Shown: piece by piece, positions 47,250 to 60,568 of the stretch
How positions within the stretch are numbered: position 1 is the first letter of the stretch
How the letters are laid out: each line of letters starts with the position of its first letter
Source: Futiania mangrovi
GTDB lineage: Bacteria; Pseudomonadota; Alphaproteobacteria; Futianiales; Futianiaceae
Length of the DNA: 64,000 bases
Assembly (NCBI RefSeq): GCF_024158125.1
Contig: NZ_JAMZFT010000001.1
Span: 310,001-374,000 of the forward strand
Reading direction: 5' to 3'
Position numbers and translations under genes: made by a program
Notes under the pieces: generated by a model
What the model saw: only the letters and a program-made list of their open reading frames with translations
Told to the model about the DNA's origin: nothing
Database searches by the model: none

Positions 47250-48581
47250 ATGACGAGCCAGATCCACCTCCTGAGCTTTCCGGAGCATACCGAGGGCGTG
47301 CACCACGCGCTGGACAACGCGGTCAGGGATCCGGCCGACCGGCGGTTCCGTGGCAGCAGCATGATCGACTATTGGCAGAACGTCGCGCGGATCCTCGAGC
47401 GCGGGAAATTCGACGGCATCTTCTTCGCCGATACGGCGGCGATCTACGACCGCTACAAGGGGCGGCCGGACGAGTCGATCAAGTACGGGCTGGGCTGGCC
47501 GCGCCACGACATCATGCCGACGCTGGCGCTGATGGCGGCGGCCACAGAACGGCTGGGCTTCGCCTTCACCCAGTCGATCGGCGGCGCCTTTCCCTATCCC
47601 TTGATGCGGCTGATCTCGACGCTCGACTTCCTCTCGGATGGGCGCGTCGGCTGGAACATCGTGACCGGCAACACGCGCATGGAGTACGACGCCATCGGCA
47701 TCGAGGCGCTGGAGCATGACAGCCGCTACGACCGGGCGGACGAGTTCATGGAAATCTGCCGCGCCCTCTGGGACGGGATCCCGCGCGACGCCATCCTCAT
47801 GGATACCGAAGGCGGCATCGTCGCCGACCCCGCGAAGGTGGGCCGCGTCGATGTCGAGGGGAGGTATCTGAAAAGCCGCGCGGTGCCGCTGGTCGTTCCC
47901 TCGCCGCAGGGCCGGCCGGTTCTGTTCCAGGCCGGTTCGTCGGGCCGCGGCCAGCGCTTCGCGCTGCAGAACGCCGACGTGATCTTCGCCATCCAGAGCA
48001 CGACCGAGAACATGCGCCGCTATGTCGAGCAGTTGCGCGCGGCGGCGGAGGAGCAGGGGCGGTCGGATCCCGTCCGCGTGATCTTCGGCTTGCAGATCGT
48101 GCTCGGCAGCACCGAGGCCGAGGCGCGCCAGCGGCGCGAGGAGTTGCTTTCGCGCTACACGCTCGAGGCATCGCTCGCGCGGCTGTCCGGCTCGCTCGGC
48201 ATCGACTTCAGCGAGATCGATCTCGACAGCCCGATGGAGGAGTGGCCGAGCCAAGCCTCGCAGGGTCTGGTGAAGGCGCTCTCGAGCGACATGGGCGGCG
48301 GCAAGCGGCTGACGCTGCGCGACGTGGCGAAAACCTGGGCCACCTCCATCGGCACGCCGCACGTGGTGGGCACGCCCGAGCAGGTCGCCGCCGAGATCGA
48401 GACCATCTGGCGCAACACCGGCTGCCACGGATTCAACCTGCGCCCGGCGACGATCCCGGACAGCATCGAGGACTTCGTGGACAACGTGATCCCGATCCTG
48501 CAAGCCCGCGGGGTGTTCCGGACCGAGTATGAAGGCCCGACCTTCCGCGACAACATTCTTGGAACGGGTGCGGGCGCCTGA
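47250..48581 (+). CDS. LLM-class flavin-dependent monooxygenase (NtaA/SnaA/DszA family)
   Basis: A 443-residue bacterial-luciferase-like FMNH2-dependent monooxygenase. The pattern DYWQNVARILERGKFDGIFFAD, then LGFAFTQSIGGAFPYPLMRLISTLDFLSDGRVGWNIVTG and LFQAGSSGRGQRFA, matches the NtaA/SnaA/DszA group that oxidises nitrilotriacetate, sulfones and similar xenobiotics. It needs reduced flavin from a separate reductase, which is not in the window. Lies 37 bases after the GMC gene. Confidence 0.92.
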   Translation: MTSQIHLLSFPEHTEGVHHALDNAVRDPADRRFRGSSMIDYWQNVARILERGKFDGIFFADTAAIYDRYKGRPDESIKYGLGWPRHDIMPTLALMAAATERLGFAFTQSIGGAFPYPLMRLISTLDFLSDGRVGWNIVTGNTRMEYDAIGIEALEHDSRYDRADEFMEICRALWDGIPRDAILMDTEGGIVADPAKVGRVDVEGRYLKSRAVPLVVPSPQGRPVLFQAGSSGRGQRFALQNADVIFAIQSTTENMRRYVEQLRAAAEEQGRSDPVRVIFGLQIVLGSTEAEARQRREELLSRYTLEASLARLSGSLGIDFSEIDLDSPMEEWPSQASQGLVKALSSDMGGGKRLTLRDVAKTWATSIGTPHVVGTPEQVAAEIETIWRNTGCHGFNLRPATIPDSIEDFVDNVIPILQARGVFRTEYEGPTFRDNILGTGAGA

Positions 48582-49444: not shown

Positions 49445-49637
49445 GGCGCGCGCAAGGACGGACCGATCGGACTGCCTGGCGCGCCGCCGCCCCTGCAACG
49501 CCTGCTGCGGCCGTGAACGCCGGGCGAAAGCCTGTCCGAGCCTTGCCAGCGACGGTCTCCCGTTCCCGGGGGGTGCCCCTTCGACAGTATCCGGGCGGTT
49601 GAGAGCGGCAATCGGCCGCTGCCCGATCAACCGGTCC

Positions 49638-49800
49638 GGCGTTGTCAGAGGAAGCTAATTTGATACCCAATCAACGGGTGACAGGTGGGTCTCAGCAGCG
49701 CTGCGGAAGACAATTCTCGCGGCAGACCAGTAAATCATTGGCCCCAAGCTGGGCGCTAAGGCCCCAAGGGGCATCCTCGGTTCATTCCTCTGACAACGCC
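49638..49800. mobile_element. Short element with perfect 16-bp terminal inverted repeats (MITE-like or decayed IS)
   Basis: GGCGTTGTCAGAGGAA at 49638-49653 is matched exactly in reverse complement by TTCCTCTGACAACGCC at 49785-49800. The 131 bases between carry no gene. The size and structure fit a non-autonomous miniature element or the fused ends of a deleted insertion sequence. I saw no clear target-site duplication in the flanks, and I cannot name the IS family with confidence. Confidence 0.6.
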
Positions 49801-49865
49801 CTCTAGATGCACGAAAGCTGGTCCCGGAGGGGGGCGAGCGAGTCGCCCTGAGTCATTTGATGCAT

Positions 49866-49899
49866 TTGATCCGCTTGAGGCCGCAGGCTTGATCCGCTT
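49866..49899. repeat. Two TTGATCCGCTT direct repeats, 23-base period
   Basis: TTGATCCGCTT occurs at 49866-49876 and 49889-49899; a shorter TTTGAT precedes them. The second copy is part of the hairpin that follows. Spacing is iteron-like but only two copies are present. Confidence 0.4.
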
Positions 49900-49915
49900 C
49901 AAGCGATTCTTTTTG
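49887..49915 (+). terminator. Terminator-like hairpin with T-rich tail
   Basis: GCTTGA (49887-49892) and TCAAGC (49899-49904) pair over 6 bp around six bases, followed by GATTCTTTTT. It is more than 440 bases past the nearest upstream gene, so it may end an unannotated small transcript. Confidence 0.45.
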
Positions 49916-50651
49916 CATCGTATTTCAGGGCCGGTGCATCACAACTGGAAATTTGCCCAGGTGTAAAGGGTTCATGCCTCGCCGCGAGTCTCTCGTGTTG
50001 CGAGACATGGCAATAGTCCTGCGTGCGCAGAGACCTGACGCCCGCAATAATGGCGGGACCGTTCCGGCGGGCTCCTCGCATTTGCTGCCCGCATTCAGCG
50101 GGAGGGTCGTTCCCGGATTGGCGCCCTGGTTCGCCAGATGGAAAGCTGTTCCCGCAATCGAGGACGCAGTCGATCACTTTCATCCGCGATTTTCGTTCTG
50201 CGTATCCACAAGAGCAATTGTGTGCGCAGACCGTAGATATTTGGGTAATGGAGCACTGGTTGACCGTCGGTGCTTGCGCGTCTAGCACAATTGCTTTGCC
50301 CGATTTGACAAGACGCATTCGTCTTTCTATGTTGACTCTGCCCGGGCAGCAGCGAGAGACGGGGAAGCCCTCGGCCTTCCCATATCGATCACGAGTACGG
50401 ACCGCGAGACGTCCCGCCTTCATTCGCGGGCGGACAAGGCTCGGACTCCAACCCGGTACGCGTTGCGCGTATCTGCCCATGATCGTGCGGGGAGCGGTGT
50501 CACCTCCTGCCCGACCGGCCCATATCCGCACTGCACGCGTCCCACCCCTATCTCGAGACGCTCGGCTTGCAGATCGCGCACCATTGCACGTGCGCAGATC
50601 TCTCGAAGGCCACGTCTTCGAACGAGAATCTTTCTGCCGGCGAAAATCGCA

Positions 50652-50703
50652 GAGTTTCCGCAGGAAACGTGTCGCATGAGTTTCCGCAGGAAACGTGTCG
50701 CAT
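50652..50703. repeat. Tandem pair of 26-bp repeats, each with a perfect palindrome
   Basis: Two identical 26-base units (50652-50677 and 50678-50703) sit head to tail. Each contains GTTTCC-GCA-GGAAAC, a perfect 6-bp-arm hairpin with a 3-base loop (50654-50668 and 50680-50694), then CGTGTCGCAT. The second palindrome ends immediately before the GTG start of the HUH-like protein gene. Such an arrangement would suit a Rep binding or nicking site or an autoregulatory operator. Confidence 0.8.
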
Positions 50704-52791
50704 GAGGTGAAAATTCATCCTCTCTCGAGGAAAGAGACGTGGACGTCGTGGCTGGACAACATTCCCTTCTGTGAGCGTCCCGATCGTCTTCGTCGTCTCC
50801 TCCTTCCCGAGATGTTGTTCCAGGCGGGATGGAGGAGCCGGACGAGGTTCAGCAACCAGCCCCTGGCTCACCAACTTGGATATTACGCGCTCTGCGTTCT
50901 CCGTCTCGACGTCGCCTTCACCACGCACGTCGCTTGTTCCCTCCAGCCCGGCGAGAGCCCGGGCGATCTCACGCGCAAGCTGCGCAACCTGGTGCGCAGG
51001 CACACCGACGAGCCGCTCCATTATTTCGGCGTCGCTTCAAGCGATCCCCATCCACATGCCCATCTCGCGATCGCCATGCCGGAGGGCAGCCGGGTGCGTC
51101 CGCTCGTGCAGGAGTTCCTGTGCCGGCGGGCGAACATCGACGTGCCGCAACTCTGGCGCCGCGGCCGCAAGGATGCGCCCCTGCAGGATGCGCACTGCGT
51201 CGAGATCACCATGCGCCGGCGGGGGTACTGGGGCTATTCCGGGCTTATCGCCTATATGGCGCGCCATGTGCCCATCCTCGACCGCAAGCCCCCGTTGGAG
51301 ATCGAGGTCTTCGCCAGTCGGGATGTGCATGGCGCGGCGGTGGAGCTTTCCGGCACATCCATCGACGAGCTCATCGACGAGATCGAGCGCTACAATCGTC
51401 GTGTCGCTGCAGAAGCGCTCGAGGGGCCTATGAAGGGCCCTCTGGCAGCCGGAAGCACATCGGCCGCCGGTCTTCTCTCTCGCGACGACATCGCGTCTCC
51501 AGGGGCGTCCGTGCCGCGGGACCTTGCCACGACACCCGTACATGGGTCCGCGGACGGTGTGGGCTCAGCGTCCTCCGCTTCCGGATCGGAGACCGGATCC
51601 GGTGCGGGGGTACATGGAGAGACGCTTGCCCGTCCCTATACCGGAGCGGATGCCGAGCCGTCCGCCGAGACGTTGGCCGGATCGGATGCGCATCCAGGCG
51701 CCAATACGGGTGGCGGCTCCGGAGTGCCCAGCTCGTCCTCCTCTATCGGATCTCCTGGAGCTTCGTCCGGCAACCCGGGAACCGGGACTACGGCGGCCAC
51801 GACGGCGACATCACCAGCACCTGCCGAGACAACGGCTATCGGCGCGCCTGGCAGCCACGGCAACGCTCATCCGGGCACCGTTACGTCGCCGGCTCCGGCG
51901 TCTGTCCACCCCGGTTCTTCGGGTGCCTCTGGAGCCTCAGTTCCCTCTGACGCATCCGCATCCTCTGAAGCCGCAGCGACTTCGACACAAACTGAAAGCG
52001 CAACCTCTCCATCCGCGACCCATCACGATCTGACCGGCACGACACATCCGACGACGACAACACATCCGACGACGACACGACACTGCCCTCGAACCGATCC
52101 CGCACACGATACGTCCAGACCAACGGCATCTTCAGCCACGACGACAGACGGCGACAACATTGCCCTGACAGAACGCGACATCAGACAGACATCAGACCCT
52201 TCGAATACCGGCACCTTCCCGACACGTGACATCTCATCTCACGATCCATTCGCCGACAGAGCAAGACACGCAGCCACGACGCATCCGGTTGACCCAGGTG
52301 CGGCCGGCACAGCCTCGTCTTCTGCGGGCTTTGCCGACACGCACCCTCACAATCCTTCAAGTCCTGTCCTGACGATCAGAACACGAACGAAGACGCATCG
52401 CCTGAGACCGCATCGCACGTCCGACAGACCGCGATCACGACACGAGACCAGACCCGAGATCCATCGACCCGAGCCGAACCCGATCTACACGCAAGTTCAT
52501 CCCATCGACCTGTTCACGCCCTTTGACTCGCCCTGGCGTCGCTGGCGGCGGCCGACAGGGATTACCCGGCCGCGGACACGGCTCGTCCTGAAGACCATGC
52601 CCGCACCGGGCGACAGTCCCGGCCGGGCCAGTCAAGCGGCGACAAGCTGTCGCCTGAACGCGTGTCGTGAGCAGATGCAGCCTGTAACGCGCGCACGCTG
52701 CACGCTAGCACGCGACGTCCGCACCCTGCCGGGCTGCGATGTCCTGCGCCCGGCAAGGCCCCCGCCTTTCAAACGACGCGAACAAGAGTAA
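50695..52791 (+). CDS. HUH-like Rep/relaxase-type candidate with long low-complexity tail
   Basis: A 698-codon frame. The N-terminal 200 residues look globular: a motif-1-like FTTHVACSLQPG (75-86), then DPHPHAHLAIAMP with H121-A-H123 resembling the HUH metal motif, and YWGYSGLIAYMARH with candidate nucleophiles Y178, Y181 and Y187. This is the order seen in rolling-circle Rep and related HUH nucleases; the identity is inferred from motifs alone. From about 235 to 610 the sequence is Ser/Thr/Ala/Gly/Pro-rich, and the end is basic. The later part uses AGA and CGA often, unlike neighbours, suggesting transfer. GTG 50695 lies in a repeat without a good ribosome-binding site, so the start is uncertain (GTG 50707 or ATG 50812 possible). 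Confidence 0.6.
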   Translation: MSHEVKIHPLSRKETWTSWLDNIPFCERPDRLRRLLLPEMLFQAGWRSRTRFSNQPLAHQLGYYALCVLRLDVAFTTHVACSLQPGESPGDLTRKLRNLVRRHTDEPLHYFGVASSDPHPHAHLAIAMPEGSRVRPLVQEFLCRRANIDVPQLWRRGRKDAPLQDAHCVEITMRRRGYWGYSGLIAYMARHVPILDRKPPLEIEVFASRDVHGAAVELSGTSIDELIDEIERYNRRVAAEALEGPMKGPLAAGSTSAAGLLSRDDIASPGASVPRDLATTPVHGSADGVGSASSASGSETGSGAGVHGETLARPYTGADAEPSAETLAGSDAHPGANTGGGSGVPSSSSSIGSPGASSGNPGTGTTAATTATSPAPAETTAIGAPGSHGNAHPGTVTSPAPASVHPGSSGASGASVPSDASASSEAAATSTQTESATSPSATHHDLTGTTHPTTTTHPTTTRHCPRTDPAHDTSRPTASSATTTDGDNIALTERDIRQTSDPSNTGTFPTRDISSHDPFADRARHAATTHPVDPGAAGTASSSAGFADTHPHNPSSPVLTIRTRTKTHRLRPHRTSDRPRSRHETRPEIHRPEPNPIYTQVHPIDLFTPFDSPWRRWRRPTGITRPRTRLVLKTMPAPGDSPGRASQAATSCRLNACREQMQPVTRARCTLARDVRTLPGCDVLRPARPPPFKRREQE
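52043..52078 (+). repeat. 18-bp tandem repeat inside the HUH-like gene tail
   Basis: Two adjacent 18-base units starting CACATCCGACGACGACA, differing only in the last base, encode a repeated THPTTT segment of the low-complexity tail. Confidence 0.75.
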
Positions 52792-53117
52792 CCGGGCGGG
52801 CGGAAGGGTCATGATCATGCACCGCGCATTTCCTGTCAGGGTGTGGGGGGTGGTTCACTGCACCTGTTTGAGAGGGCGTCCGGGCGTCAAGTTTCAATAG
52901 CCACCAAGCGGTGAATTTGTGCGGCGGCTAGCGGACATGTTCTGCCTGTTTCGATGGTTGCCACGGATCCGCTTTCAGGCGGTCGTATGCAGGCAGGTGC
53001 GCGCACTACCATAGCGGGTGCTTGGCGGATGAAGCCACTCGAAACGCCGGGCACGAATAAAACCGATGGAAGTGGGGGGTTGCTCTCGAAAGTGAAAAAA
53101 CGGTTGCTCGAGGAAGG
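52792..53117. other. Intergenic region between HUH-like gene and SDR gene
   Basis: About 325 bases between converging stops. No gene, clear terminator or inverted repeat was found; short frames here lack support. Confidence 0.5.
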
Positions 53118-58871: not shown

Positions 58872-60568
58872 CCGCAAGGGGCAGGCAAGCCAATCTGGAT
58901 CTGACGAAGGTGGCGATCATCGCCCGGGCGCTGCAATCGGCGGCCGACGAGATGAACGCGAACCTCATCCGGTCTGCGTTCTCGACGGTCGTGCGCGAGG
59001 CGCGCGACTGTTCCACCGCGCTGCTCGACGCCGATGGCAATGTCATCGCTCAGGCCGAGACCATTCCGATGCAGACCGCCGCCTTGGCGCTCTCCTTCAA
59101 GGCCGCGAAGTCCCAACTCGACCTGTCCACGGTGACGGACGGGCAGGCGATCATCATGAACGATCCCTACTCGGGCGGTCAGCACCTCAACGACATCATC
59201 CTGTTCCAGCCGATCTTTCATCAGGGCGATCTGCTCGGTTGGTCGGGCAGCACGGCGCACCACCTCGATATCGGCGGCGGCAGCGCCGGCGTGAACACCC
59301 GCGCCACCGATCTGATCCAGGAGGGTCTCGTCATCCCGCCGATCCTGTTCGACGTGGCGCGCGACTGGCACGGCGGGGCGATAGAACGCTTGATCTTCGC
59401 CAATATCCGCACCCGCGAAATCGGTCTCGGGGACATGAACGCGCAGTTCGCAGCCAACCATACCGGGGCTGTGCGCATGCGCGAACTTGCCGATCGCTAT
59501 GGCGTGGACACGCTGCGCAAGGCGATGGTCGAGGTGCTGGACTACAGCGAACGGCGGATGCGCGCCGCAATCGCTGAGCTTCCCGACGGCTCCTATACCG
59601 GCAGCGCGTCGATCGACCGCGATGTGTTCGAGGACCGGCCGGTCCATGTCCGCGCGACCGTGAGCATCGAGGGCAGCGAGATGACGATCGACTTCACCGG
59701 CACGGACCCGCAGGTGAAGAGCATGTTCAACTGCCCGCTGTCCTCGGCGCACGCCGCGGTCTTCGCCGCCGTGCGCTGCATCATGGGCGACAAGGACATG
59801 CCGGCAAACGACGGGTGCAACAGGCCGCTGACATTGGTGTTTCCGAAGGGCAGCCTGCTCAATCCCGCTGGTCTCGCGCCGGTGCGGGCGCGCATGGCAT
59901 CGGCCTACCGTGCCTTCGACGCGGTGCATGCGGCGCTGTCCGGGGCGGTTCCCGACCGCGTGCCCGCCCAGGGGTTCAACACCACGACTGGCTTCTATAT
60001 CGCGCAGCAGCGGCCAGAGGGCTACCGCGTCTTCGTCGATGTCCTGGGAGGCGGGTTCGGTGCCGGGCGCGACTACGACGGGGCGGATGCCTGCGACAAT
60101 ATCCTGAGCAACTGCCGGAACACGCCCATTGAAGCCTTCGAGCAAGCCAATCCGCATCTGCGCATGGAGGCCTACGAACTGGTCCCGGATTCGGGTGGCG
60201 CCGGGCGCTGGCGGGGTGGCCTGGGCTTCACGCGCGTGCTCAAGGTGCTCGAAGAGGGTGTTTTTCTCAATCTCTACTCCGACCGCTACAACGTACCCGC
60301 GCAGGGATCGTGCGGCGGGTTGCCAGGGGCGTGCGGCGGGCTTTCCGTCTTGCGTGCCGGCGAGGAAATCAGCTTGTCGCCGACCGCCGCCTTCGACTTG
60401 CAGCCCGGCGATACCGTGCGGCTCGCGACAGGTGGCGGCGGCGGCTACGGGGATCCGCGCGAGCGGTCGCGTGCGGATGTCGAACGCGATCTCGAGGATG
60501 GCCGGATTTCGGAAAGACATGCGCGCGAGGTCTATGGCTTCGCGCCGAGCAAGAAGAGCGCTGCCTGA
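58868..60568 (+). CDS. hyuB: Hydantoinase/oxoprolinase subunit B
   Basis: A 566-residue HyuB subunit. Family features are MNANLIRSAFSTVVREARDCSTALLDADGN, GQAIIMNDPYSGGQHLNDII, FDFTGT-like DFTGTDPQV, and GAGRWRGGLG followed by a C-terminal ATGGGGGYGDPRERS. It works with HyuA as a heteromeric ATP-dependent ring-opening hydrolase; relatives include acetophenone carboxylase and caprolactamase subunits, so the exact ring or ketone substrate is open. Confidence 0.93.
   Translation: MTARGRQANLDLTKVAIIARALQSAADEMNANLIRSAFSTVVREARDCSTALLDADGNVIAQAETIPMQTAALALSFKAAKSQLDLSTVTDGQAIIMNDPYSGGQHLNDIILFQPIFHQGDLLGWSGSTAHHLDIGGGSAGVNTRATDLIQEGLVIPPILFDVARDWHGGAIERLIFANIRTREIGLGDMNAQFAANHTGAVRMRELADRYGVDTLRKAMVEVLDYSERRMRAAIAELPDGSYTGSASIDRDVFEDRPVHVRATVSIEGSEMTIDFTGTDPQVKSMFNCPLSSAHAAVFAAVRCIMGDKDMPANDGCNRPLTLVFPKGSLLNPAGLAPVRARMASAYRAFDAVHAALSGAVPDRVPAQGFNTTTGFYIAQQRPEGYRVFVDVLGGGFGAGRDYDGADACDNILSNCRNTPIEAFEQANPHLRMEAYELVPDSGGAGRWRGGLGFTRVLKVLEEGVFLNLYSDRYNVPAQGSCGGLPGACGGLSVLRAGEEISLSPTAAFDLQPGDTVRLATGGGGGYGDPRERSRADVERDLEDGRISERHAREVYGFAPSKKSAA

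Follow-up and report, generated by a model that had tools for sequence, protein, structure and literature searches.

A divergent gene of probable HUH-type Rep ancestry beside tandem palindromes in Futiania mangrovi

Introduction

What is a gene with the motifs of an HUH endonuclease doing directly behind two small palindromes in the genome of Futiania mangrovi, and from what kind of element did it come? The gene lies in a stretch of 64 kb that we analysed as a whole (the window, to whose first letter all plain coordinates in the gene's neighbourhood refer). An earlier note on this DNA had read it as a possible self-contained replication protein (Rep) or transposase of the HUH class, with the palindromes as its origin or target. 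Here we consider the reading frame and its only detectable relative, the evidence on the fold, the surroundings of both genes, and the palindromes themselves.

Results

The reading frame, its motifs and its tail

The open reading frame occupies 50695..52791 on the forward strand (698 codons) and does carry, as described earlier, FTTHVACSLQ, HPHAHLAI and YSGLIAYMARH in its N-terminal part. The first of these (aa 75-84, 50917..50946) forms a motif-1-like strand, the second (aa 119-126) overlaps the HUH motif 2, PHPHAH (aa 118-123, 51046..51063), and the third (aa 181-191) includes a motif-3-like helix, GLIAYMARH (aa 183-191, 51241..51267). Between the latter two lies LWRRG (aa 153-157, 51151..51165), which aligns with the LWxxG of microvirus Reps; all of these features are on the forward strand. 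Translation would begin at GTG 50695 or at GTG 50707, and the choice is uncertain because similarity to the homologue described below starts only near aa 29. A candidate sigma-70-like promoter on the same strand, TTGACA-17-TATGTT (50305..50333), lies ~360 nt upstream and is proposed solely on its match to 10 of the 12 consensus positions.

Codon statistics resemble those of the neighbouring genes for approximately aa 60-240 and do not for aa 245-698. The latter part corresponds to a low-complexity tail rich in Ser, Thr, Pro and Ala, followed by an Arg-rich end (51430..52791, forward strand), with neither a family match nor a coding signal. Pfam gave no match in aa 246-698, and hence no helicase domain was detected after the nuclease domain, in contrast to CRESS-type Reps, pCRESS Reps and Helitrons. 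The frame of the tail is nevertheless open beyond chance, with only 2 of 2,000 shuffles remaining open for as long. Its end is doubtful, because the last 40 codons sit within a 184-bp dispersed repeat (52672-52855) whose other copy in the same genome (C1:791469-791652, 84% identical) contains frame-changing gaps. The tail (aa 246-698) may thus be partly real.

A single homologue

Approximately 1,580 genome searches over the class, the phylum and one further order, with some genomes repeated, returned a single homologue (G056:C47:57736-58401, 34% identity, E 1e-24), which resides in a genome of another family of the same class as Futiania mangrovi (G056 hereafter). Such scans overlook distant relatives, and the rarity of the protein holds relative to the search tools used. 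When 84,980 genomes were scanned for a degenerate DNA motif, 46 matches emerged, none of them a relative by profile or translation. Likewise, nothing turned up in IMG/VR, whether the query was either protein, the alignment of the two, one of two motif patterns or the integrase of the homologue's element; a sequence search of plasmids found no relative, a search of phages gave only one match, at E 7 and attributable to chance, and a sequence search of the PDB returned nothing relevant. Several further candidates were rejected as chance matches: a putative paralogue in the Futiania mangrovi genome (C3:406030, E 0.014) runs antisense to a histidine-kinase-like gene, a match in G705 is by sequence a Gp37/Gp68-like phage protein, one in G401 is a sensor kinase, and one in G804 is antisense to a hydrolase-like gene and contains two stops.

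The two proteins share the blocks F-x-T (aa 75-77), LxYFG, PHxHxH (118-123), LWxRG (153-157), PLQxAH and GLxxYxxxH (183-191), and all statements on conservation made here refer to these two sequences (n = 2). F75, T77 and P118 are conserved, H119, H121 and H123 of the HUH motif are invariant (PHPHAH in the window protein, PHRHLH in the homologue), and Y187 and H191 are kept in the motif-3-like helix (GLIAYMARH and GLVDYWQHH, respectively). The expectation that both the histidines and the tyrosines would be conserved among homologues is therefore borne out for the histidines and for Y187, but not for Y181, the position of which is taken by isoleucine in the only homologue.

The homologue travels in a tRNA-integrated element, the window gene stands alone

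The homologue is part of a 10.9-kb element integrated at a tRNA-Ala gene (G056:C47:48050-59012, equivalent to L068 8050-19012). This element is delimited by att-like direct repeats of 65 bp (48050-48114 and 58948-59012, 58/65 or 89% identical), one of which includes the 3' end of the tRNA-Ala. The Rep homologue lies at the right end, beside the right att repeat, while just inside the left end there are a DUF6538 frame and a phage-type tyrosine integrase (Phage_integrase, E 3e-8). Some other genes of the element encode phage-tail-like and DNA-binding-like proteins and a resolvase N-terminal domain. The rep gene and a small ORF of 121 codons, both at the right att, are on the same strand as the integrase; since all of them read one way, rep would come to lie immediately ahead of int once the element is circular. 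The family to which the window gene belongs probably provides the Rep of a lineage of integrative elements.

The window gene is found alone in a GC-poor gap of 3.7 kb (49445-53117) between intact metabolic genes, SMP-30-like and SDR. There is no tRNA in the 64-kb window and no integrase match in the scanned frames around the gene, and the gap is spanned by no direct repeat longer than 10 nt, so that neither att repeats nor a boundary were found. The window copy is thus an orphan, and the simplest way to read it is as a remnant left stranded, which we regard as probable. The proposal that the gene is self-contained does not agree with these data: its homologue is a passenger of an element with an integrase of its own, and in the window we could recognise no element of this kind.

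Two other features of the gap deserve mention in their own right. At 49638-49800 there is a MITE-like element of 163 bp, bounded by terminal inverted repeats of 16 bp without mismatch (GGCGTTGTCAGAGGAA), which has relatives of ~160 bp and 75-88% identity elsewhere in the genome (C1:799528, C2:1115181, C4:96141 and C4:107208). It is followed by ~850 bp (49800-50650) with a coding signal on neither strand and a GC content of 0.49-0.68; the genes on the left have ~0.69.

Evidence for an HUH-type Rep

The only Pfam match of the window protein is to REP_ORF2-G2P (PF23343) at aa 91-136 (E 0.04, 14.6 bits versus a gathering cut-off of 27.8), and the homologue has no match to this family; a known microvirus Rep, phiMH2K Vp4, is a full member (E 1.9e-19). 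Profile comparison by hhalign of the pair with 10 aligned microvirus Reps gave a score of 27.3 (E 0.0042, probability 8%), in an alignment that places HUH on HUH (PHxH on PHxH) and LWxRG on LWxxG. Among the controls (n = 741), the highest scores were 20.0 for 400 column shuffles and 23.3 for 341 real ORFs. Taken singly, the proteins scored 22.6 and 23.3 and did not surpass the highest control, and the microvirus profile signal therefore rests on the pair.

The AF2 models of both proteins are weak (mean pLDDT 44 for the window protein and 49 for the homologue). In the best-modelled part of the former, residues 75-145, the predicted order strand-helix-strand-strand(HUH)-helix is that of the HUH core, and Y187 is placed on a later predicted helix (182-191), downstream of the HUH strand. 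When the window model was compared with BFVD using Foldseek, the named rows in the best 50 were parvo- and densovirus nonstructural proteins or Reps, HHV-6 U94 and microvirus Reps, and the named rows for the homologue model were 'Replication gene A protein' and 'Replication associated protein'; most BFVD rows are nameless, and that database may contain more Reps than any other kind of ferredoxin-like protein. Structure matches in the PDB (VIA-align, Z up to 5.8) are mixed and belong mostly to other ferredoxin-like folds, with the TYLCV Rep (Z 4.3) level with many others.

The PDB matches, and fold evidence that is weak throughout, leave room for a conserved non-HUH protein with a fortuitous HxHxH, for example another metal-binding or ferredoxin-like protein. 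The pair also departs from the nearest HUH family at two sites. The GEYG glutamate before PHxH and the YxxxY of motif 3 are both nearly invariant in the 10 microvirus Reps, whereas the pair has FG[VI][AY]S, without the glutamate, and YxxxH, without the second tyrosine. However, the order of the motifs together with LWxxG fits the microvirus Rep layout, the profile of the pair scores above every control, and the mobile-element setting of the homologue suits a Rep. We thus consider a non-HUH protein rather unlikely. Each line of evidence for the HUH class is weak singly, yet the Pfam, profile and Foldseek results point, weakly but consistently, in one direction, with microvirus Reps as the nearest group. 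The assignment to an HUH-like enzyme class, previously read from the motifs alone, is probably right, as the conserved motifs, the weak Pfam match, the microvirus profile and Foldseek agree on it; judging from sequence and model, the window protein is likely to be an HUH Rep. No match to an IS91, IS200/IS605 or RAYT transposase was found with Pfam or NCBIfam.

The tandem palindromes

Upstream of the gene, two exact copies of a 26-nt unit (GAGTTTCCGCAGGAAACGTGTCGCAT) stand head to tail on the forward strand and span 50652-50703 (copy 1, 50652..50677; copy 2, 50678..50703), each with the hairpin GTTTCC-GCA-GGAAAC, in agreement with the earlier description. The palindrome itself (GTTTCCGCAGGAAAC) occupies 50654-50668 in copy 1 and 50680-50694 in copy 2. 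The units had also been said to end exactly at the GTG. It is the palindrome of copy 2 that GTG 50695 directly follows, whereas the unit continues to 50703 and so covers codons 1-3. Three readings of this structure remain, namely slippage without function, a regulatory hairpin, and an origin or target.

The last of these readings, in which the gene is a self-contained Rep or a REP-associated transposase and the tandem palindromes are its origin or target, draws on how closely the palindromes adjoin an HUH-like gene, reaching up to its start codon, an arrangement that recalls RAYT/TnpA_REP systems, where an HUH-like protein is likewise found beside a short palindrome. The pair is the strongest tandem array of the window (score 113), its 13-mer TTTCCNNNGGAAA occurs twice in the window, both times within the pair (shuffles expect 0.03), and strand folding of the region exceeds that of shuffles (z -2.9 and -3.5). 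REP-associated transposases, however, act on many dispersed palindromes, whereas this unit occurs in one place only, as two tandem copies: a 17-mer around the palindrome has no further copy in the 3.39-Mb genome, even with one mismatch allowed. The window gene, moreover, matches none of the RAYT, IS91 and IS200 families, and 3 nt would be short for a loop that carries a nick site. Upstream of the G056 homologue we found no equivalent of the unit; the tandem pair present there is one of 24 nt, with imperfect copies (75% identity).

The hairpins carry limited weight for further reasons. Stems of 6 bp with a loop of 3-8 nt number 240 in the window and occur in about one in ten stretches of 26 nt, so that a hairpin by itself is weak evidence, and the two palindromes count as one event because copy 2 is a duplicate of copy 1. 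Local duplication is not peculiar to the upstream site either, since the ORF itself holds exact tandem duplications (18 nt x 2 at 52042-52077 and one of 11 nt at 52177-52197), the first of which makes slippage plausible for the 26-nt pair. Taken with the single genomic location of the unit and its absence upstream of the homologue, these observations speak against the palindromes as origin or target, and we view a self-contained Rep or transposase acting on them as very unlikely. Each Rep may have a hairpin of its own, the comparison with homologues resting here on n = 1.

A regulatory role would take one of two forms: pairing of the units in the mRNA could hide the AGGA before GTG 50695, or the protein encoded by the gene could bind the units, so that the gene would be autorepressed. 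Such a role concerns the repeats only and is compatible with a Rep derived from an integrative element. In RNA, both units are predicted to pair into a single extended stem (-20.4 kcal/mol, z -2.2) that takes in AGGA 50688-50691. This AGGA is merely 3 nt before GTG 50695, and the start codon is itself uncertain between that GTG and the one at 50707. Among 200 shuffles, only 4 matched this folding, but comparison lends the stem no support, as the unit is absent from the homologue, and we consider regulation by the palindromes unlikely as a specific proposal. Overall, a local duplication that perhaps regulates the start codon is more likely than an origin. Rfam has no family in this region.

A separate observation concerns the G056 genome. 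A perfect inverted repeat of 16 bp, with 6 nt in its loop (L005 1057-1094), lies past the start of a divergent gene, upstream of rep and ~400 nt from the region homologous to the window gene. It is unrelated to the 26-nt unit and could be a terminator or a candidate origin.

Discussion

Our preferred reading, to which we assign a probability of about two in three, is that the gene encodes a divergent HUH-type Rep with a microvirus/REP_ORF2-G2P-like layout, and that it derives from a Rep carried by small integrative elements. The homology, the motif conservation and the element context of the homologue are demonstrated; the fold, the chemistry, the origin and the status of the window copy as a remnant are inferred. 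If the protein works as its motifs suggest, two histidines of PHxHxH would bind a metal ion, and Y187 would attack one strand at an origin hairpin and remain attached to its 5' end. The free 3' end could then serve as the primer for rolling-circle replication of an excised element, in which circularisation would have brought rep next to int.

The closest likeness is to the microvirus Rep (VP4; PF23343, e.g., Vp4 of Bdellovibrio phage phiMH2K), which has the same order of motifs: strands with F-x-T, LxYF and PHxH, then LWxxG and a Tyr helix. In addition to the differences in glutamate and second tyrosine discussed above, the window protein has an extra third histidine (HxHxH) and a long low-complexity tail, and its gene does not lie in a phage genome. 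Among bacterial plasmids that are integrated site-specifically, the viral-like pCRESS Reps combine the nuclease with a helicase domain, and those of pCRESS4-8 have a histidine in motif III (YLxH) (PMC6668415). They are thus likewise Reps of integrated elements with a motif III histidine; the window protein differs in having no detected helicase and in its motif, YxxxH.

A parallel for the layout of the homologue's element is offered by the archaeal provirus SNJ2, in which the ends of the element join into one replication operon, a functional arrangement; its RepSNJ2, of the Rep-Arvir family, is described as a family apart from HUH, and its tested hairpin origin lies downstream of rep (PMC13107129). 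What SNJ2 and the G056 element share is the layout only, that is, rep near one att and the integrase near the other, joined in the circular form. SNJ2 is archaeal, and the layout of the G056 element is known from sequence alone.

One could go further and suppose an unnamed, rare family of HUH Reps, in which a motif-3 histidine stands in for the second tyrosine and the usual acidic residue ahead of the HUH strand is missing, and which would replicate tRNA-integrated elements only after rep and int have been joined and would recognise tandem hairpins at its own start. We find this combination of properties quite improbable. Most likely, the protein belongs, as a divergent member, to a superfamily that is well known, and it derives from a well-known kind of element.

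If our preferred reading is true, the window gene and its homologue represent a lineage of Reps that is rare and very divergent and is missed by the family models of Pfam, PHROGs and NCBIfam, and an unusual variant of motif 3, YxxxH, persists in integrated elements. This would leave the picture of rolling-circle replication unchanged, and would sharpen the recognition of Reps that reside in chromosomes.
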